Below are positions 3,208 through 14,917 of a stretch of 51,276 nt of DNA, one piece after another (position 1 is the stretch's first letter; the number at the start of each line of letters is the position of its first letter). The position numbers were made by a program, and so were the translations under genes. A model generated the notes under the pieces. The model was given only the letters and a program-made list of their open reading frames with translations. It ran no database searches and had not been told where the DNA came from. Origin of the DNA: Candidatus Hydrogenedentota bacterium (GTDB lineage Bacteria; Hydrogenedentota; Hydrogenedentia; Hydrogenedentales; SLHB01); assembly GCA_016215105.1 (NCBI GenBank), contig JACRLJ010000041.1, forward strand, positions 1 to 51,276, read 5' to 3'.

Positions 3208-4245
3208 TCAAAATACTGTGCCGCCGGCGGATTTCTGGTAGCGTCCTTGCAGCGTAATGTTCATTTCCAGGACGTTCACCAGGGATTCGCCAACGAGCCC
3301 GCCCAGGGGCGCAAACGTCTTTTCGCGCAGTAGCTGCTCGATTTCGCCGCGGGTGTTGGCGGGGTCGGCGCCGGTTCTTTTTGCCCACGCGGCGGCGACA
3401 CGGTCCAATTGCCAGTTGGCATTGTCCAGGGTGATGTGCGGATCGAGGCCGGAAAAGGATGCGGTGACCATGTCGCCGGGAACCTTCTCGAGATCCGCGT
3501 CGGGATGCTCGTGCGTCCACATGTCGAAGAAGACGGACTGAATATCGGTCCCGGCTTTGACAGGTTCGACAGTCTTTTCCGTCCTGCCGTCCGGCGACTT
3601 GTGTTCGACGGCGCTTGGAAATGTTCCAGGATAGGACTTCGAGAAACTGGTGAAAAACGGAACCGCCAGATCTTCGGGTTTGGGATCAGTGTTGTCGGGA
3701 TTGGCCGTCTTCCACTGGGCGACCTCGACATCGTGCGTCTTTTGCCACGCGGTCACATAGTTGCCGTTCATCTCGTCGGCCTTCACCCAGTTCTGGGCGA
3801 CGGTGGAATGCGCATTGGCCCACTGCGCGACGATACCCGGTTTGCCAGCGTACTGGTCCTTCTGGAACCAGGCTTCAATGTCGGGCGCGGCAAGTTGACC
3901 CTTCTTGGGACCGCTGGCGTATTTCACGACCGGACCAAGCTGCCGCGCGACGCGATCGCGCAGCAGGTAGTTGCTGGCGGCCCAGTTGGTTCCGCCGGAA
4001 GCCTCGCCTTTGTAGGACGCAGCCGACGGACGGGGCTGAAAGTACTCGTCCGTCGTAAAGGGCTGAGCAATCAAATGGGAACCGATGACCTCTCCCTTGG
4101 CGCCGGTGATCATGCTGCCTTCGGCTTTTTCTGTAAAGACCGTCTGGCCAATTCCCCACAGAACAAGAGGGTATATCACCGAGCACAGGACTATCGTCAA
4201 TCCCAACAGCCAGAGATTTGCACGTAAATGAGCGTTCATATTCAA
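3208..4245 (-). CDS. kdpC: KdpC subunit of K+-transporting ATPase, with large insert
   Basis: KdpC is the single-span periplasmic subunit of the KdpFABC high-affinity potassium pump. Residues 11-36 form the N-terminal membrane helix. The family signatures GSHLIAQPFTTDEYFQPRPSA (split at about 55-75) and GTNWAASNY follow. The conserved C-terminal half starts at GDMVTASFSGLDPHIT (257-272) and runs to VNVLEMNITL (323-332). Canonical KdpC is about 190 residues; this one is 345 because of roughly 145 extra residues (about 108-253), rich in Trp, Lys and Asp, between the two conserved halves. It is the last gene of the operon, 23 bases after kdpB, and precedes a strong terminator. Confidence 0.93.
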   Translation of the reverse strand: MNMNAHLRANLWLLGLTIVLCSVIYPLVLWGIGQTVFTEKAEGSMITGAKGEVIGSHLIAQPFTTDEYFQPRPSAASYKGEASGGTNWAASNYLLRDRVARQLGPVVKYASGPKKGQLAAPDIEAWFQKDQYAGKPGIVAQWANAHSTVAQNWVKADEMNGNYVTAWQKTHDVEVAQWKTANPDNTDPKPEDLAVPFFTSFSKSYPGTFPSAVEHKSPDGRTEKTVEPVKAGTDIQSVFFDMWTHEHPDADLEKVPGDMVTASFSGLDPHITLDNANWQLDRVAAAWAKRTGADPANTRGEIEQLLREKTFAPLGGLVGESLVNVLEMNITLQGRYQKSAGGTVF

Positions 4246-4268: not shown

Positions 4269-6485
<2,217 letters not shown>

Positions 6486-6545: not shown

Positions 6546-8294
6546 TTACCCGCCGAACGGCGTGGGACCGAGGTGTTCTGCAATTGGTCCCAGCGCGGCG
6601 ACGGGCAGGAACAACAGTGCGCCGACCATAATGATCGTACCCAGAAGCACAAGGCCGAATGTTAGGGTGTCCGTCCTCATGGTGCCGACGGTAAACGGCG
6701 TGGGTTTCTTTGCGGCCAAACTCGCGGCCAGGGCCATCGGCGCGACAATGGGGATGAAACGGCTGAACAGCATGACCAAGCCGGTAGCGATATCCCAGTT
6801 CGGGCTGTACGGCGCCGGGTTGGGGTTGTCGTTGTTTCCGTAGGTGTCGCCCAGACCCTCGAAGCCCGAGCCGTTGTTGGCCGATGCCGAACTGAACTCG
6901 TAGAGCACTTCCGTGAAGCCGTGGGCGCCGGGGTTGTTCGTTGCCTTCGCGCCCCAGTCCGACGCGATAAAGAGACCTGTCGGCATCAAGATGAGAATGG
7001 GATGCACCAGCAGCGCGAGCATGGCCAGTTTCATTTCGCGGGCCTCGACTTTCTTGCCGAGATATTCCGGGGTGCGCCCGACCATCAACCCGGCGATGAA
7101 CACGCCGATGATGAGGTAGAGCAGCATATTGATCAGGCCGACACCTTTGCCGCCAAACACGCAATTGAGCCACATGCCGGCGAGCGGCGTAATGCCGGCC
7201 AGCGGGTTGAGGCTATCGTGCGCGCAGTTGACCGACCCGCACGTAATGGCGGTAGTGCCGGCAGCGAACGCCGCGCCGGCGGAGGTTCCGAAGCGAAGCT
7301 CCTTGCCCTCGAGGTTTCCAAGATGCTGGTCCACGGGCAAGCCGGCCAAGCCGGGATTGGGTTGAAGCGTATCCCAGTAGATTGCCCAACCGGTCATCGC
7401 GAGGAAGATGCTCATCATGACGCCAAAAATCATCCAGGCGTGGCGCATCTTCTTGAGCATGCGGCCGAACATCAGTACGAGGGCAAACGGGAAGAGGCAG
7501 TAGTTTACTACCGTGAGCATGTTGCTCCACGCGCTCGGGTTCTCGAAGGGGTGCGCGGAGTTGGCGCCGAAGAACCCGCCGCCGTTCGTGCCCAGATGCT
7601 TGATAGGAATAATCGCGGCCACCGGACCGCGCGCAATCTGCTGCGGTTGAGATTGGCCCGCATCGTTAGAACCCATGCCTCCCGGCTCGACCGTGGTCGC
7701 GGAAGCTCCGCCATGCAGGGTCATAGGGACGCCATCGGCTAAGAGCAGAATGCCCATGACAAGCGCGGCCGGCACGAAGATATAGGCCACCACGCGCCAC
7801 ATGTCCAGATAGAAGTTGCCCATCCGCGCGTCGCCGCGCAACGCGCGGACGATAGCCGCCAACGCGCAAAATCCGACACTCGCGGACACGAACATATTCC
7901 AGCACACAAAGAAGATCTGGCTGGCGTAGGACAAGTGCTGCTCGCCGGAGTAATGCTGGAGGTTGGTGTTCGTCAGGAACGATATGGCAGAGTTGAAGAT
8001 CGTTGTGGGAGCAAGCATGCCCTTGCCGTCCGGATTTAGGCCGAACACGGGTTGCAGGGTTAGTACGACGAATCCGAATACGAACATCACGGTGTTGAAC
8101 AGAAGAAGCGAAACAGCGTACTGCTTCCAGTTCTGCGCGCCAGTGTCGAGACGCTGCTCGATCCACGTCAACGGTTTCGGCGGCGCGAAATGGCCATCCA
8201 TGATCCATGCGAGATAGCGGCTAAGCGGAATTGCGAGCGCCGTTGTCGCGGTTAAGATCAGAACGGGCAGAGTCCAAACCTGAAATTGAAGCAT
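6546..8294 (-). CDS. kdpA: KdpA, K+-translocating subunit
   Basis: The channel-like potassium-binding subunit of KdpFABC, 582 residues, with many membrane helices. Selectivity-filter-type loops are visible: TNTNLQHYSGEQ, HLGTNGGGFFGANSAHPFENP, TAITCGSVNCAHDSLNPLAG and ANNGSGFEGLG. The N-terminal LSRYLAWIMDG and central WMIFGVMMSIF helices match the family. It follows kdpF by 29 bases and precedes kdpB by 60, within one minus-strand operon. Length and motifs are typical of the family. Confidence 0.97.
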   Translation of the reverse strand: MLQFQVWTLPVLILTATTALAIPLSRYLAWIMDGHFAPPKPLTWIEQRLDTGAQNWKQYAVSLLLFNTVMFVFGFVVLTLQPVFGLNPDGKGMLAPTTIFNSAISFLTNTNLQHYSGEQHLSYASQIFFVCWNMFVSASVGFCALAAIVRALRGDARMGNFYLDMWRVVAYIFVPAALVMGILLLADGVPMTLHGGASATTVEPGGMGSNDAGQSQPQQIARGPVAAIIPIKHLGTNGGGFFGANSAHPFENPSAWSNMLTVVNYCLFPFALVLMFGRMLKKMRHAWMIFGVMMSIFLAMTGWAIYWDTLQPNPGLAGLPVDQHLGNLEGKELRFGTSAGAAFAAGTTAITCGSVNCAHDSLNPLAGITPLAGMWLNCVFGGKGVGLINMLLYLIIGVFIAGLMVGRTPEYLGKKVEAREMKLAMLALLVHPILILMPTGLFIASDWGAKATNNPGAHGFTEVLYEFSSASANNGSGFEGLGDTYGNNDNPNPAPYSPNWDIATGLVMLFSRFIPIVAPMALAASLAAKKPTPFTVGTMRTDTLTFGLVLLGTIIMVGALLFLPVAALGPIAEHLGPTPFGG

Positions 8295-8323
8295 TTCCCT
8301 TTACCCCGTAGTTTGAGAAGTAA

Positions 8324-8413
8324 CTAGAACCACTCTGGCCGCACCAGGGCGGCAAACAGGTAGATCAGTAGCAGGACCGTTATCACGGCGGTCAGTCCGG
8401 TGAGGATTCCCAT
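8324..8413 (-). CDS. kdpF: KdpF, small membrane subunit
   Basis: A 29-residue peptide beginning MGILTGLTAV and ending IYLFAALVRPEWF. It has a single hydrophobic helix with the YL-x-AL-x-x-PEWF end characteristic of KdpF, the lipid-like subunit that stabilises the KdpFABC complex. Its position immediately before kdpA is the usual one. It starts at ATG 8413 and stops at TAG 8324-8326. Confidence 0.92.
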   Translation of the reverse strand: MGILTGLTAVITVLLLIYLFAALVRPEWF

Positions 8414-8451
8414 ATCACGCCTCTCGTGTTATTTGGCCTTCGTCCGGAGAC

Positions 8452-8547
8452 TCAGACTTTTTCGCAGGCCGGAACGCAGGCGGCGATCAAAGCGAAAACC
8501 AGCAGTCCGAGCACAAATAGCGTTGGAAGTACTATCGTCAGATTCAT
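8452..8547 (-). CDS. 31-aa membrane peptide leading the kdp operon
   Basis: An ATG at 8547 with AGGAG seven bases upstream opens a 31-codon frame: MNLTIVLPTLFVLGLLVF followed by ALIAACVPACEKV. It is one hydrophobic helix with two cysteines and a short charged tail. It is the first gene after the sigma54-like promoter and 38 bases before kdpF. Small uncharacterised peptides of this kind precede kdpF in a number of other bacteria. It may be an accessory subunit of the Kdp complex or a regulatory peptide. The clear ribosome binding site and position make it likely to be translated. Confidence 0.75.
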   Translation of the reverse strand: MNLTIVLPTLFVLGLLVFALIAACVPACEKV

Positions 8548-8580
8548 TTGTTCACTCCTTGGATCGTGATCGGAAAAATG

Positions 8581-8596
8581 TCCGCTGTGCAGCGGA
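8581..8596. promoter_or_regulatory. Palindrome in the kdp leader
   Basis: TCCGCT-GTGC-AGCGGA is a 6-bp-arm inverted repeat lying about 5-20 bases downstream of the predicted start point. Its 11-mer CCGCTGTGCAG is repeated in the same orientation at 8720-8730, inside the upstream dyad. It could be an operator or a short leader hairpin. Confidence 0.4.
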
Positions 8597-8611
8597 ACGT
8601 GAATAGGCTAT

Positions 8612-8627
8612 CGCAGGAGGCGTGCCA
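8612..8627 (-). promoter_or_regulatory. Sigma54 (-24/-12) promoter of the kdp structural operon
   Basis: On the minus strand the sequence reads TGGCACG-CCTC-CTGCG, against the sigma54 consensus TGGCACG-N4-TTGCW. The invariant GG and GC dinucleotides are present with the required 10-base gap. It predicts a transcript start near 8601, giving a leader of about 54 bases before the first kdp gene. An NtrC-type activator gene with an intact GAFTGA motif lies upstream at 12816-14171, which fits sigma54 control. Confidence 0.75.
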
Positions 8628-8702
8628 CATCGGGGCGCCGGGCCCCGGTGATAGATATCAAGGACTTGTGCTAGTCGAGATGCCGGGCGCCCGGGTTGGT
8701 GA

Positions 8703-8737
8703 TTGCAGATTGCATGCGGCCGCTGTGCAGTTTGCAA
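8703..8737. promoter_or_regulatory. Dyad upstream of the sigma54 promoter (putative enhancer)
   Basis: Arms TTGCAGATTGCA (8703-8714) and TGCAGTTTGCAA (8726-8737) are inverted repeats matching at 10 of 12 positions across an 11-base spacer. The dyad centre is about 120 bases upstream of the predicted start, the usual place for binding sites of sigma54 activators. That the neighbouring NtrC-type protein binds it is inference. Confidence 0.55.
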
Positions 8738-8775
8738 GGCGCTCGTGACGCGCTTCGAGGCGAAAAGGGGCGCCG

Positions 8776-10440
8776 TTACCGGCCTTCCCAGTCCCAGATC
8801 GCGACAAGCGCGTCCGCCGCCGATCTGGCGCTCGCGATGCGTTCGCGCAGATGTCGATCTTGGCTGGCGCGGCTGGCAAGGCTGAGAATCTGAAGCTGGA
8901 CGTTCGGTTGTTCCGCCGGCGCGACGATGAGGAAGACGCATTCGACCGGCCGTTCCACGGAGGCGTCCACGACGCCTCGGCGCGTTATCCCGAGGGCAAC
9001 CAGAGGCGTCGCAAGGCCGGTGACACGAGCATGAGGAAAGGCGGCCCCTTCGTTGAAGAAGGTGCTGCCTTGTTCTTCGCGCTCGAAAACGGCATGGCGT
9101 ATCTCGTCCGCGCTGGGCGATTCCCCGCGTTTGCACACGGCAAGAATCAGGGCGTTAATGACTTCCTGTTTGAACACCGGCTCGTCCCAGATTCGGATAT
9201 TTTCCGCCTTGAGCAGGCCTCCCAGGAGTATCGGCGGGCCGGCCTGTTTCTCGCCCGCACTGGCGGCGTGATTCTGCTCGTCCGGGGGGAGCGCGGTGGC
9301 TGGCCGCCCCTTCCGTGTATCGAGCACGACGACCGTGACCCCACGCGCCTCCTGGAGCAGGCGCTCTACGGTGCCGCGCCGGCCGAGCAGGCGTTTCCAC
9401 ATGGGGGTGGGCGCGGGAGAGCCAATAATGATGTGCCCGACGCGGTATTCGCGCGCAAAACGCAAGATAGTGTCCGGAACATCTTCACCTTTGTATGTGA
9501 AGACCAGCGCTCCAAGTTGCTTCGCGAGAGTCAGCACACCCGAGAGCACGCGCTGGGTGCGAGCGTCGATAGCGGTGGGTTCTTCCGCGGGAGTTTGCAC
9601 ATATACGGCATACCAGTTCCGGTTGAGCCGTCCGGCGAGACGCGACGCATACCGGAGCAGCATCTCGCTGTTTGGGCCGCCCGAGCTCAGGCACACCATC
9701 ACCTGGTCGGGGGCGGTGGAGAATGCATCGTCAGCGGGTTCGCGCCGGCGCAGGTCAATCTGCGACGCCAGTTCGCGCAAGGTGAGTTCACGGAGCTGTT
9801 CAAGATTTGCCGGAACGAAAAAGTTGCCTTGGGCGGCCGCTATGCGTTCTTTGGGATAGACCTTTCCCTCGTTGAGCCGCTTTTGCAGATCTTCCGTAGT
9901 CAAGTCCACGTTCACCAGTTGGTCAGCCTCGGCAAGCACCGAATCCGGCAAGCGCTCGCGGACCTTTACGTTCAGCGAATGCTCCACGGTATCGTACAGG
10001 CTCTCGAGATGCTGCACATTGAGGGTGGTAATGACGTGAATACCCGCCGCGAGTATATCTTGTACGTCTTGGTAGCGCTTCTGGTTCTTCGAACCAGGGG
10101 CGTTGGTGTGCGCCAGCTCATCGATCAGAACTACGGCGGGCTTCCGTTCGAGAATCGCGTCCGAATCCATTTCATCGATGGTAATGCCGCGACATTCCGT
10201 GCGGCGGCGCTCCATCACTTCAAGCCCATCCACCAATTTCGCGGTATCGGCGCGGCCGTGAGTTTCGACGAGTCCAACCACCACGTCGATGCCCTCGGAC
10301 TTCATGCGGTGGGCCTCCTGGAGCATCTGATAGGTCTTGCCGACACCGGCGCAATATCCGAGATAGATCTTGAGCCGGCCGCGCTGCGAGCGGCGAATCA
10401 TGCTCATGAACGCGTCGGCTTTGGCGCTAGTGTTGGACAT
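8776..10440 (-). CDS. KdpD sensor domain - USP - PTS EIIA fusion (no kinase domain)
   Basis: A 554-residue cytoplasmic protein. Residues about 20-230 are the KdpD N-terminal sensor domain, with Walker A (GYCAGVGKTYQM, 28-39) and Walker B-like VVLIDELAHTNAPG (103-116). Residues about 245-375 are a universal stress protein domain of the kind found in KdpD. Residues about 400-550 form a PTS EIIA type-2 (PtsN/fructose-like) domain with the phosphorylatable His in AAFPHARVTGL (His470). The four KdpD membrane helices and the histidine kinase are absent; a separate kinase gene lies 66 bases upstream. In E. coli, EIIA-Ntr is known to bind KdpD, so this fusion joins two known interaction partners. It probably senses potassium, nucleotide or PTS state for the adjacent kinase. 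Confidence 0.9.
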   Translation of the reverse strand: MSNTSAKADAFMSMIRRSQRGRLKIYLGYCAGVGKTYQMLQEAHRMKSEGIDVVVGLVETHGRADTAKLVDGLEVMERRRTECRGITIDEMDSDAILERKPAVVLIDELAHTNAPGSKNQKRYQDVQDILAAGIHVITTLNVQHLESLYDTVEHSLNVKVRERLPDSVLAEADQLVNVDLTTEDLQKRLNEGKVYPKERIAAAQGNFFVPANLEQLRELTLRELASQIDLRRREPADDAFSTAPDQVMVCLSSGGPNSEMLLRYASRLAGRLNRNWYAVYVQTPAEEPTAIDARTQRVLSGVLTLAKQLGALVFTYKGEDVPDTILRFAREYRVGHIIIGSPAPTPMWKRLLGRRGTVERLLQEARGVTVVVLDTRKGRPATALPPDEQNHAASAGEKQAGPPILLGGLLKAENIRIWDEPVFKQEVINALILAVCKRGESPSADEIRHAVFEREEQGSTFFNEGAAFPHARVTGLATPLVALGITRRGVVDASVERPVECVFLIVAPAEQPNVQLQILSLASRASQDRHLRERIASARSAADALVAIWDWEGR

Positions 10441-10506: not shown

Positions 10507-12351
10507 TCATGAAGTCGTTCCATCCTTCGTGAGCGTATCGGCCCGCTTCAGTGTGAACTGAAACACGGCGCCTTGACCTTCGTGGCTTTGTGCGGAAATG
10601 GCTCCGCCGTGCGCCTCCACAATTTCCTTTGCGATAGCGAGACCGAGGCCCGCGCCCGAATCGCCTCCCTGGTCCGGAACGCGAAAAAACTGTTCGAAGA
10701 CGTGCGGCAGCCATTCCTTCGGTATGCCTTTGCCGGTGTCGGCAACGGAGAAGAGCACTTCACGGTCGTTCGCGCTTGCGGAAAGTGTGACCTTGCCGCC
10801 AGCAGTGGTATACCGCAATGCGTTGGAAACAAGGTTGGCGAAAACGTGCTCGACCCGCGCGGGGTCGGCCCACACGTCCGGCAGGTCCAGCGGTACGTCG
10901 ACGGTCAACGCGACGCCGCGATCTTTGGCGGTCGCGCGAAATGGCTCGATCGCCTCGACCACCAGATAGAACGGCACGGTCTCGCGGCATTCCGGATGCG
11001 CCCAACCCGCCTCGATGCGGCTGATATCCATGAGATCTTCGAGTATCCTGTACAGCCGATCCCCGTCGTCGCGGGCAGCGATCAGGAGTTCCGTCTGTTT
11101 TGCAGTAAGTGGCCCCACCTTCTCATCGAGCAGGAGGTAGACGGCCATTCGGATCGACGTGAGAGGGGTCTTGAGCTGGTGCGATACGGTGGAGATGACG
11201 CCGCGCTTGATCTCATCCATCTGCCGCAACTGGGTGATATCCTGAAGAATCAGGATTACGCCGGCTGCTTGACGGTCCTGATCGAGAATCGGGGCCGCCT
11301 TCAACCGGTAGAAATGCTCATAACCGTCCACGAAGCGCTGTACGGCGCTTCCGTTTCCATGCGACTCGACGGTGCGGCCCGTGCGAACAGCTTCCGCCAT
11401 AGTCTCCGATAGTCCAACCTGAGGAGTGTCGTGAATTGTAGTACCCGGCCGCAATCCGAAAAGATCGCGCGCGGCGCCCGTAGACACTTCGACCGTGCCG
11501 TCCAGGTCGACCACGGCGATGGCCTCGGGCAAGCTGTCGAAGGCCTGCTGCGTGGCGCGCTGAATCCGGGCCAGATTCGCGCGGTCGCTTCGCCGGAACT
11601 CGCGCAGACTGGCCGCCATCGTGTTGAAGGACTCGGAAAGCTGGCCGATCTCGTCACGGGATGCGCTGGCGACCACGAGGTCCAGGTTGCCGCGCGTGAT
11701 CTCGTTCGTGGACTGGATCAGGCGGGTAATCGGGCGCAGGACCCAGCGGCCTGTGAAATACGTGAACGCCGCCGCCAGGGCCGCGCCGGCGACCAAGAGG
11801 ATATACATGCGTTTGCGCGCCGACGCGGCCCGCTGACGCGCTTCGGCGTTGGCCGCGACCATGTTGTCCTGGTTCATTCGCATCACGTCGTCAGCGGTGT
11901 TCTTTATTTGTTCAAATAGCGGGAGCAGCTTGGTGAAGTAGGCGCTGCGTTGAACGTCTGGCGGAATCGAGGGGTTCCGTGCCTCCAATATCGTTGCCTT
12001 GTACTGCAAATAGAGGTCTCGGATTCGTTGGGCCTTTTCGCCCTCGCCGGGCAACGTGATATTGCCTAATTCTGCGTCGAGTTCTTGCTCGAACGTGCGC
12101 TCGTTGGCGTCAATCTGCGGTATTCCCTTTTCGGGATAGCCCGACAAGATGAACATTACGCCGCTGTCGATTCGTTCGATGGATTCCTTCATCGCTTGGC
12201 AGGCGATCACACTGCGGTAGTTTTCCCGGAGAATGACATCAATCGCTTCTCCAAGCCGCGACAACTGTGTAATGCTCTGAACCCCGATGATGACGATGAT
12301 GAGCAATAATCCGCCGAAACCGAGGGAGAGTTTCTGACGCAATCCAAGCAC
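10507..12351 (-). CDS. HAMP-PAS sensor histidine kinase of the kdp locus
   Basis: A 614-residue membrane histidine kinase. Transmembrane helices lie at about 8-27 and 182-200, enclosing an extracytoplasmic helical region of about 155 residues. HAMP follows (about 200-255), then PAS (about 265-375), HisKA with His391 in VSHQLKTPLTSIR, and HATPase_c with NLVSNALRY (506-514), DTGKGI and GAGLGLAI. It starts at GTG 12351 with GGAGG 7 bases upstream. It sits between the NtrC-type regulator and the KdpD-USP-EIIA gene on the same strand, so it probably supplies the kinase activity missing from the latter and phosphorylates the regulator. The sensory domain is unlike the KdpD input region. Confidence 0.93.
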   Translation of the reverse strand: MLGLRQKLSLGFGGLLLIIVIIGVQSITQLSRLGEAIDVILRENYRSVIACQAMKESIERIDSGVMFILSGYPEKGIPQIDANERTFEQELDAELGNITLPGEGEKAQRIRDLYLQYKATILEARNPSIPPDVQRSAYFTKLLPLFEQIKNTADDVMRMNQDNMVAANAEARQRAASARKRMYILLVAGAALAAAFTYFTGRWVLRPITRLIQSTNEITRGNLDLVVASASRDEIGQLSESFNTMAASLREFRRSDRANLARIQRATQQAFDSLPEAIAVVDLDGTVEVSTGAARDLFGLRPGTTIHDTPQVGLSETMAEAVRTGRTVESHGNGSAVQRFVDGYEHFYRLKAAPILDQDRQAAGVILILQDITQLRQMDEIKRGVISTVSHQLKTPLTSIRMAVYLLLDEKVGPLTAKQTELLIAARDDGDRLYRILEDLMDISRIEAGWAHPECRETVPFYLVVEAIEPFRATAKDRGVALTVDVPLDLPDVWADPARVEHVFANLVSNALRYTTAGGKVTLSASANDREVLFSVADTGKGIPKEWLPHVFEQFFRVPDQGGDSGAGLGLAIAKEIVEAHGGAISAQSHEGQGAVFQFTLKRADTLTKDGTTS

Positions 12352-12545
12352 TGCATAACCTCCACGCCCTCAGTAAGTGGAGCAAAGTCGGCGCCAAGGG
12401 CAAGAAATCGCAACCAATCGTGATTTGATCCTCTGGAAGAGTAAAAAGGAGGGGAGGCTATTGCAAACTGCACGCTCGCAGCTAGAATCCATTGAAAAAC
12501 GCAACACGTTCGGCGTTCTAGTGTGGTGAATCACGCCGATCGAAT

Positions 12546-12794: not shown

Positions 12795-12821
12795 AGTATA
12801 CCAGATTTGATTCGATCAAAT
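12795..12821 (-). promoter_or_regulatory. Promoter and palindromic operator of the 80-aa protein
   Basis: On the minus strand an inverted repeat with seven-base arms, ATTTGAT-cga-ATCAAAT type (12805-12821), overlaps the stop codon of the regulator gene. It is followed by a -10-like TATACT (12800-12795) seven bases before the ATG at 12788. The palindrome covers the position of a -35 box, as an autorepressor operator would. No good -35 hexamer is seen. Confidence 0.4.
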
Positions 12822-14171
12822 GCCGTACTGCTTGCGCCGGCGCCAGAGGGTGGCTTGGTCGATGCCCAGGATTTCGGCGGCCTCCTGGAGGGATTTTGCG
12901 GAGGCCAAGACGCGCCGGATATGTTGCTCCTCGAGTTGTTCCAAGCTGATGCGGTCACCCAGGCTTGGCGCGAGGTCTTTCGGCGCCAAGCTAGCCGGCA
13001 GGTGTTCGGCGCCGATGCGCTGCGCGGGACATAGAATCGCGATGCGCTCGATCACGTTGCGCAATTCCCGAAGGTTGCCCGGCCATGGGTAACGGCGCAG
13101 TACCTCGATTGCTTCGTCCGTGAACCCGAGAAACTGGTGATGGTTGTTGCGTCCGAAGAAAGCCAGCAGGCGCTCCGCGAGCGCCGCAAGATCGTCAAGA
13201 CGGTCGCGGAGGGGCGGCAACTCGATTTGAATCACGTTGAGACGGTAGAGAAGGTCCTCTCGGAATCGTCTTTCGGCCACGGCCTTTTCGATGTCGATGT
13301 TTGTCGCAGCGATAACGCGCACGTCCGCCTTTCGCGGCCACGGCTCGCCGATGCGCTCGTACTCGCGGTCCTGGAGAAAGCGCAGCAGTTTTGGCTGAAG
13401 GCTCAACGGCAGGTCACCGATTTCGTCCAGGAAGAGCGTGCCGCCTTCGCACGCGGCGATTCGCCCAGGATTGTCGCGCACGGCGCCCGTAAACGCGCCT
13501 TTGATGTGGCCGAACAATTCGCTTTCGAGCAACTCCGCGGAAAGCGACGGGCACGAAACCACGGCCAGCGGCTTCGAGGCGCGCGGACTCCAATTGTGGA
13601 TGGCCTTGGCGAGCACACTCTTGCCTGTCCCGGACTCTCCCCGGAGCAGAATCGTAGCGTCCGCGGCCGCGACCTGTTTGGCCAGACTTACGGCGGCCTG
13701 CATCGCGGACGAGACGCAACTGAAGTCCATCTCGGGGTTCGAGCGGCCGAGGTCATCCTGGAGGGCGGCCAATTTGTGTTCGAGGCCGCGGACTTCCGCG
13801 ACCTTGCGGACCGCCAGTTGGACTTGGGCTGGCGTGAACGGTTTTGGAATGTAGTCGGCGGCCCCGCGCCGCATGGCTTCAACCGCGGTATCGATCGAGG
13901 CGTACGCGGTAATCACCACGATCTTCAGCCACGGAATGGCGCCCAGCAACAGCGGGATCAAGTCCAGGCCATCCCGCACTCCGAGCCGGAGATCGACAAA
14001 CGCCATTTCGAAGGCGCGCCGGCCGGCTTCCGCGACGGCGTCCTCAAAATTACTTACTGCGGTGACGGCATGCCCTTCCGTTTCGAGGCACATGGAAAGC
14101 GTCTTGCGAATATTGGTCTCATCGTCTACGACGAGGATGCGCAACGACGGACTGCTGGCTTGCGTGGTCAT
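12816..14171 (-). CDS. NtrC-family sigma54-dependent response regulator
   Basis: A 451-residue regulator from ATG 14171 (an upstream ATG at 14267 overlaps the NAD kinase gene and is unlikely). The receiver domain (about 10-125) has VVDDE and phospho-acceptor Asp60 (FVDLRLG). The AAA+ domain (about 148-385) has Walker A GESGTGKS, the sigma54-contact motif GAFTGA (225-230) and Walker B GGTLFLDEIGD. The Fis-type helix-turn-helix is at the C-terminus (LQEAAEILGIDQATLWRRRK). Eleven bases separate it from nadK. It most likely works with the adjacent kinase and activates the -24/-12 promoter in front of the kdp genes, replacing KdpE, which is an OmpR-type factor elsewhere. Confidence 0.95.
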   Translation of the reverse strand: MTTQASSPSLRILVVDDETNIRKTLSMCLETEGHAVTAVSNFEDAVAEAGRRAFEMAFVDLRLGVRDGLDLIPLLLGAIPWLKIVVITAYASIDTAVEAMRRGAADYIPKPFTPAQVQLAVRKVAEVRGLEHKLAALQDDLGRSNPEMDFSCVSSAMQAAVSLAKQVAAADATILLRGESGTGKSVLAKAIHNWSPRASKPLAVVSCPSLSAELLESELFGHIKGAFTGAVRDNPGRIAACEGGTLFLDEIGDLPLSLQPKLLRFLQDREYERIGEPWPRKADVRVIAATNIDIEKAVAERRFREDLLYRLNVIQIELPPLRDRLDDLAALAERLLAFFGRNNHHQFLGFTDEAIEVLRRYPWPGNLRELRNVIERIAILCPAQRIGAEHLPASLAPKDLAPSLGDRISLEQLEEQHIRRVLASAKSLQEAAEILGIDQATLWRRRKQYGI

Positions 14172-14182
14172 AGCAGATGCCC

Positions 14183-14917
14183 CTAATACGAATGCGACGG
14201 GTGCGTCATCGCGTCCCAGGTGTAGAGGATCGCCGGCTGGTCCGATTTCCGTATGACCAATCCGCAATGCTCATTCATCTCGTGGTATTCCTGGGCGTTG
14301 TCCACGGCGATCAGCGCCGGTCCGCGGGTGATTTCCACCCGGATCACGCTGGTATCCGGCACGACCATGTGGTTGGTGTGTTCGCTGGTGTACTTGAACG
14401 CCACTCCAAGTCCCGTGTGGAAGACACCTCGTGTGATCTGGTTGAAATACGCGGTGCTTCCGAAGGGCGTGCTGACGACAAAGCCGTCACCGATAATCTC
14501 GATTCCCGATTCATAGGGTTCGTCGTTGATCCACAGTTTGAAGCGGACGGCCGAATTGATGCGTCCGCTATGCACGCTGAATTCGTTCATTGCGTGGGGA
14601 ATGCCCGTGACGGGGTTGGCGCCCGGCGAGCGCATCACGCATTCCAGCTTCGTAAATGCGGTCCGGAACAGGCGGCCCTGAGCGAGGCGTTCGATGACCC
14701 GAGCTGGGGCATGGCCTATGCATCGGACGCCGCGCCGGCTGTTCCGAATTGGCGTCTTGGGTACGCCAGGCCATTTGAGTTCCGCGGAAAGCAAGGTACC
14801 GTCCCCGCCGTAACAAATGATGACGTCCGGGGCGGTGTCGACGAGTTCGAGAGCGGGGTGCTTTCCGATTTCGCCGGTCAATGTTTCGGCTTGCGCGCCG
14901 AACAGAATCGTTCTCAT
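14183..14917 (-). CDS. nadK: NAD kinase (ATP-NAD kinase family)
   Basis: A 244-residue protein phosphorylating NAD to NADP. It has the GGDGT motif (ICYGGDGTLLSA) and the family core GDGFVVSTPFGSTAY; the region after it, FNQITRG, fits. The N-terminal domain is short compared with many NadK proteins. The start ATG at 14917 gives MRTILFGAQ with AGGAA seven bases upstream; 21 codons of open frame before it overlap the upstream permease gene. It is 11 bases before the sigma54 regulator, so it is probably co-transcribed with the kdp regulatory genes. Whether that is functional or incidental is unknown. Confidence 0.88.
   Translation of the reverse strand: MRTILFGAQAETLTGEIGKHPALELVDTAPDVIICYGGDGTLLSAELKWPGVPKTPIRNSRRGVRCIGHAPARVIERLAQGRLFRTAFTKLECVMRSPGANPVTGIPHAMNEFSVHSGRINSAVRFKLWINDEPYESGIEIIGDGFVVSTPFGSTAYFNQITRGVFHTGLGVAFKYTSEHTNHMVVPDTSVIRVEITRGPALIAVDNAQEYHEMNEHCGLVIRKSDQPAILYTWDAMTHPSHSY

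Follow-up and report, generated by a model that had tools for sequence, protein, structure and literature searches.

Predicted sigma54 control of the kdp potassium-uptake genes by a local NtrC-type regulator in a Candidatus Hydrogenedentota bacterium

Genes of the kdp locus

The stretch of DNA analysed here (the window) comprises 51,276 nucleotides from a Candidatus Hydrogenedentota bacterium. On its minus strand the genes follow one another in the order NtrC-type response regulator, sensor histidine kinase, a KdpD protein combining sensor, Usp-like and EIIA domains, a predicted promoter, a 31-residue peptide, kdpF, kdpA, kdpB and kdpC (Table 1). The 31-residue peptide matches no family model; homologues of it, ending in ACEKI, ACEKL or FERL, precede kdpF in relatives.

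The KdpD protein of the window has no kinase. It scores 345.6 bits against NF038185, the model for KdpD-like potassium sensors, and thus falls below the model cut-off of 550; with the proteins of that model it shares a KdpD sensor and a Usp region in the absence of a kinase, and it differs from them in being extended by an EIIA domain. In this domain the likely phospho-histidine is surrounded by the residues FPHA. KdpD-EIIA fusions are common to many relatives. Genome-wide we find a single KdpD sensor domain and a single KdpA, and no KdpD membrane domain (DUF4118); for this reason a classical, full-length KdpD carrying both DUF4118 and a kinase was not found in the genome.

The regulator encoded beside kdp is of the NtrC type and is not an OmpR-type KdpE. 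Its start codon is uncertain, and the gene lies 4 kb upstream of the kdpF promoter on the same strand. The first-pass annotation of this DNA had placed an NtrC-type activator with a GAFTGA motif at the locus, and we find it there; that annotation had also named the absence of rpoN as a possible refutation of sigma54 control, which is excluded by the presence of rpoN in the genome (Sigma54_DBD, E = 4e-62).

Table 1. Coordinates of genes and predicted control elements in the window, and of potassium importers beside the regulator-kinase cassette in related loci
Feature	Position	Strand	Remarks
kdpC	3208..4245	(-)	345 aa, long internal insertion; PF02669
kdpB	4269..6485	(-)	TIGR01497
kdpA	6546..8294	(-)	PF03814, TIGR00680
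kdpF	8324..8413	(-)	29 aa; TIGR02115 and PF09604, above cut-off
Small first operon gene	8452..8547	(-)	31 aa (MNLTIVLPT...ACEKV); single membrane span
-24/-12 sigma54 element TGGCACGCCTCCTGCG	8612..8627	(-)	Upstream of kdpF; predicted transcription start near 8602
Proximal candidate activator site ATGCAATCTGCAA	8703..8715	(-)	1 mismatch to TTGCANNNTGCAA; 22 bp from distal site
Distal candidate activator site TTGCAAACTGCAC	8725..8737	(-)	1 mismatch to TTGCANNNTGCAA; 110 bp upstream of -24
Non-kinase KdpD	8776..10440	(-)	KdpD sensor, Usp-like and PTS EIIA (PtsN-like) domains; PF02702, PF00359
Separate sensor histidine kinase	10507..12351	(-)	HAMP-PAS-HisKA-HATPase, from domain matches
Second predicted sigma54 element TGGCGCCGACTTTGCT	12381..12396	(-)	45 bp before kinase start; 11.3 bits; conserved promoter position of relatives
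Candidate activator site GTGCAGTTTGCAA of kinase promoter	12461..12473	(-)	77 bp from -24 element
Weaker candidate activator site TTGCGTTTTTCAA	12492..12504	(-)	2 mismatches; 31 bp upstream of GTGCAGTTTGCAA; 108 bp from -24
NtrC-type response regulator, proposed activator	12816..14267	(-)	Receiver, AAA+ with GAFTGA, Fis-type HTH ending GIDQATLWRRRKQYGI
Kup beside regulator-kinase cassette	L043 13223-15211		
TrkA/TrkH beside regulator-kinase cassette	L056 14241-16839; L059 15201-16694; L060 15239-19427		
KimA-like permease beside regulator-kinase cassette	L046 11485-13524; L114 3945-5957		Also in other Chlorobiaceae

The region upstream of kdpF

The predicted -24/-12 element lies within the gap of ~228 bp that separates the non-kinase KdpD gene from the small kdp ORF. 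Its GG-N10-GC spacing, which is that of the sigma54 pattern TGGCACG-N4-TTGCW, is intact. Because the first kdp gene, the small ORF, begins at an ATG at 8547, the -12 GC stands ~65 bp upstream of the operon; the sequence (TGGCACG-CCTC-CTGCG), the GG/GC spacing and the distance that had been annotated for this element are all as claimed. When the 51-kb window was searched with TGGCACG-N4-YTGC, this element was the only match, and it is also the top-scoring site of the window with a sigma54 weight matrix (14.7 bits). The matrix is an untrained one; at a threshold of at least 14.6 bits, 0.0008 sites are expected by chance per 227-bp intergenic strand, and 0.4 sites in the window on both strands.

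Further upstream, a 35-base dyad had been noted about 120 bases upstream of the start. Its coordinates, 8703-8737, proved right, and it resolves into two 13-bp palindromes, 22 bp apart, with the consensus TTGCANNNTGCAA. These candidate activator sites precede the -24 element by 88 and 110 bp, which fits the norm for sigma54 promoters of roughly 80-150 bp before the start; from the dyad it is ~120 bp to the predicted transcription start and 155-190 bp to the start codon. The position of the distal site matches that in many relatives (106-111 bp), whereas the spacing between the two candidate operators before kdpF, 22 bp in the window, is ~32 bp in most relatives. A genome-wide scan for single operators with one mismatch allowed returned 97 sites, compared to 91 in the reversed control, and is thus uninformative.

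The predicted kdp leader holds, at 8596-8581, a six-pair hairpin followed by CATTTTT, which is terminator-like and weak and counts against transcription of kdp from this promoter. For a sequence of its composition, however, the leader folds in an unremarkable way (z = -1.4), and an Rfam search of the leader gave no match.

A second predicted promoter, before the kinase gene

The intergenic region between regulator and kinase carries its own predicted sigma54 element, TGGCGCCGACTTTGCT, and two candidate activator sites. Since most relatives have a single promoter, and have it before the kinase gene, the predicted promoter at 8627 is an extra one, a second copy of the kinase-promoter design.

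Conservation among relatives

For comparison we used 56 public loci with close relatives of the regulator, together with genomes of the same order. In ~45 relatives, from some ten phyla, the NtrC-type regulator is accompanied by operators and by a -24/-12 element ~40 bp before the kinase gene, and the usual gene order is regulator, kinase, kdpFABC and non-kinase KdpD. Where regulator and kinase genes are adjacent, the gap between them contains a sense -24/-12 element of at least 10 bits in 33 of 36 loci, typically ~41 bp before the kinase; the antisense control in the same gaps gives 2 of 36. The operator TTGCANNNTGCAA, with at most one mismatch, is found upstream of the kinase promoter in 34 of 37 relatives, compared to 0.06 in shuffles, and it is exact in 26 of the 37; the distance of these palindromes from the -24 element is usually ~98-110 bp, and many loci have a further one at 66-78 bp. 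A scan of the DNA before the regulator gene gave no consistent sigma54 site in relatives.

Loci of Syntrophobacteraceae (Desulforhabdus family) served as a held-out set; they were fetched after the rule had been set and were unused for motif finding. All 13 testable regulator-kinase gaps of this set carry a sense -24/-12 element of at least 10.9 bits, in most cases 34-46 bp ahead of the kinase. In most of these gaps, those of a Syntrophobacter-like subgroup that includes locus L130, both arms of the palindrome are changed, giving TTTCATTTTGAAA; such symmetric drift is expected for a site that is read by a symmetric dimer. The regulator tree has only partial resolution: on it the kdp label takes 10 changes and the row of the window falls in no starred clade, and we base no claim of a single origin on it.

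Comparison with related genomes had been suggested in the first-pass annotation as a check on the element and the dyad, with a lack of conservation as a further possible refutation. That refutation is excluded, since the module with its operators and -24/-12 element is conserved before the kinase; the exact copy before kdpF is mostly absent, with nearly all relatives lacking a sigma54 promoter directly before kdpF. Conservation of the 8627 copy is thus indirect, because the promoter of most relatives precedes the kinase gene and none stands directly before kdpF. Among the exceptions, L114 has a direct kdpF promoter of 19.4 bits with an exact operator, and here a KimA-like gene separates the kinase from kdp; L132 and L143 also have direct promoters before kdpF, and no kinase was detected in between.

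This distribution could mean that the 8627 element and its operators are a decayed or secondary copy, and that kdpFABC is mainly read through from the promoter at 12396. The gene layout of the relatives suggests that their kdpFABC is transcribed from the kinase promoter without any site before kdpF, and the non-standard spacing of the operator pair before kdpF in the window would be in line with such a reading. We nonetheless consider it unlikely: the 8627 element outscores the one at 12396 (14.7 vs 11.3 bits), two operators with one mismatch each have been kept at the standard distance before it, and a near-perfect second promoter has arisen independently in L114, where the KimA-like gene lies between kinase and kdp. 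Read-through from 12396 would moreover have to pass two genes, those for the kinase and KdpD, and a further ~230 bp without coding sequence.

The recognition helix and its operator

Regulators of the clade that has the operator hardly vary in their recognition helix, GIDQATLWR(R/K)RK. In regulator relatives from Solimonas, Hydrocarboniphaga and Tahibacter, which are 48-51% identical, the helix reads IDSSTLYRKRK or IDASTLYRKRK; no operator was found after the regulator gene in these relatives, and no kdp within the stretch read. Across the sequences compared, recognition helix and operator thus co-vary.

It might be argued that the dyad is bound by a different regulator or forms an RNA structure, and that the NtrC-type protein acts elsewhere, and further regulators do bind the kdp region of Desulfovibrio vulgaris too (PMC3333781). 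We regard this as highly improbable for the window, given that the palindrome recurs next to regulators of this one clade, whichever importer is downstream, and that it tracks the recognition helix of the regulator. An RNA structure is in addition opposed by the location of the dyad upstream of the promoter, and hence outside the predicted transcript, and by the lack of an Rfam match.

Three loci of the same order (L113, L116 and L118) have kdp in the classical KdpD-KdpE layout, and for L113 Pfam confirms a full-length KdpD and an OmpR-type KdpE; just upstream of kdp in these three, we found no strong sigma54 site and no operator. That the window, too, is under classical control by sigma70 and an OmpR-type KdpE, with the GG/GC element a chance match, is hardly credible even though KdpDE is the textbook arrangement and is used by some genomes of the order: its genome has neither a full-length KdpD nor a KdpD membrane domain, no sigma70-like site was found in 8290-8800, and promoter and operators are conserved far beyond chance.

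Proposed mechanism

The sequences themselves show which genes are present, the promoter elements and operators, their conservation and the co-variation of helix and operator, and the genomic, comparative and recognition-helix evidence agree. They strongly support the view that kdp is very probably under a sigma54 promoter whose upstream sites are served by the local NtrC-type regulator, and so bear out the proposal of a sigma54-driven kdp operon from which this analysis started.

We propose the following model, to which as a whole we assign a probability of roughly 0.87. The histidine kinase and the cytoplasmic KdpD-Usp-EIIA protein would jointly sense potassium limitation; in the latter protein the EIIA domain may act as an input from the phosphotransferase system. 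The kinase would phosphorylate the NtrC-type regulator, which we infer to bind the paired TTGCANNNTGCAA sites of the dyad and to assemble there into an AAA+ ring; contact between its GAFTGA motif and sigma54 would then open the promoter, with sigma54 RNA polymerase transcribing kdpFABC from the 8627-8612 element. Regulation would accordingly be in the direction of activation. The same regulator could also drive the kinase and KdpD genes from the promoter at 12396 by way of the sites there, which would result in positive feedback.

Relation to known systems

In E. coli, kdp is controlled by a single membrane kinase, KdpD, and the OmpR-type KdpE, with sigma70. The window has in common with that system a two-component control of kdpFABC that makes use of the KdpD sensor domain, and differs from it in its sigma54 NtrC-type regulator and its split sensor. 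With NtrC-type enhancer-binding proteins, the regulator of the window shares the receiver, the AAA+ domain with GAFTGA, the Fis-type HTH, the paired palindromes and the -24/-12 promoter; it differs in that the function under its predicted control is potassium uptake.

For Desulfovibrio vulgaris Hildenborough, Rajeev et al. (2011, PMC3333781) mapped the regulator DVU3334 to its own kdpFABC operon and noted that KdpD there consists of two proteins, one with the sensor and Usp domains and the other a kinase. Kazakov et al. (2015, PMC4641369) list DVU3334 among the regulators with GAFTGA, its target being a potassium uptake operon that depends on sigma54. The window contains the parts of a DVU3334-type locus together, namely regulator, separate kinase, non-kinase KdpD and kdpFABC. 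It shares with the DVU3334/DVU3335/DVU3336-kdpFABC system a GAFTGA regulator of the NtrC type, a separate kinase, linked kdpFABC genes, a KdpD sensor with Usp but without kinase and, as predictions for the window, the targeting of its own kdp genes and dependence on sigma54. It differs in having two promoters, one of them directly before kdpF, and in the PTS EIIA domain that its non-kinase KdpD carries.

A DVU3334 orthologue with a conserved motif has been reported for Syntrophobacter fumaroxidans (PMC3333781), whose genome is probably our L130. This locus has an architecture of the window type, a regulator 65% identical to that of the window, and a related, drifted palindrome; judging by that report and by L130, the window regulator may be an orthologue of DVU3334.

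Because DVU3334 has been described (PMC3333781, PMC4641369), sigma54 control of kdp is a known kind of control. The initial view that it would be an unusual rewiring does not stand, as the same arrangement occurs in some ten phyla and has its Desulfovibrio precedent from 2011 and 2015. The feature noted in the window is real, the mechanism suggested for it is right in outline, and the control is not of a new kind; the second promoter is mildly unusual. In the literature, with most subscription journals outside the scope of the search, we found no paper on the spread of this control across phyla or on the two-promoter layout, and no report of the cassette beside importers of the Kup, Trk or KimA type.

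Potassium importers other than Kdp

The regulator-kinase cassette, with its promoter and sites, adjoins other potassium importers as well, instead of or besides Kdp (Table 1); by the rule applied here, several Chlorobiaceae loci have weak operators or none. Its location beside Kup, TrkH/TrkA and KimA-like genes points to a general sigma54-based controller of potassium uptake. We think it likely that the regulator-kinase pair and TTGCANNNTGCAA make up such a controller over some ten phyla, coupled to importers of the Kdp, Kup, Trk or KimA type, and that a KdpD without kinase, in many instances fused to EIIA, often serves as its input; the only descriptions we found of this alternative to KdpDE concern Desulfovibrio. 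Sigma54 control of potassium import would then be a common second solution beside the textbook control of kdp by sigma70 and KdpE, and the operator, the promoter geometry and the regulator signature could be used to annotate other genomes. The KdpD-EIIA fusion further suggests that the nitrogen-related phosphotransferase system is hard-wired to potassium sensing within one protein.

As for the transporter itself, kdpA, kdpB and kdpC of the window are nearer to the Syntrophobacter type (61, 68 and 57% for L130) than to those of relatives of the same order, a likeness that may be a sign of transfer having replaced the transporter genes. The long insertion of kdpC is also present in Syntrophobacter-type kdpC, where the 57% identity to L130 extends over residues 2-336.
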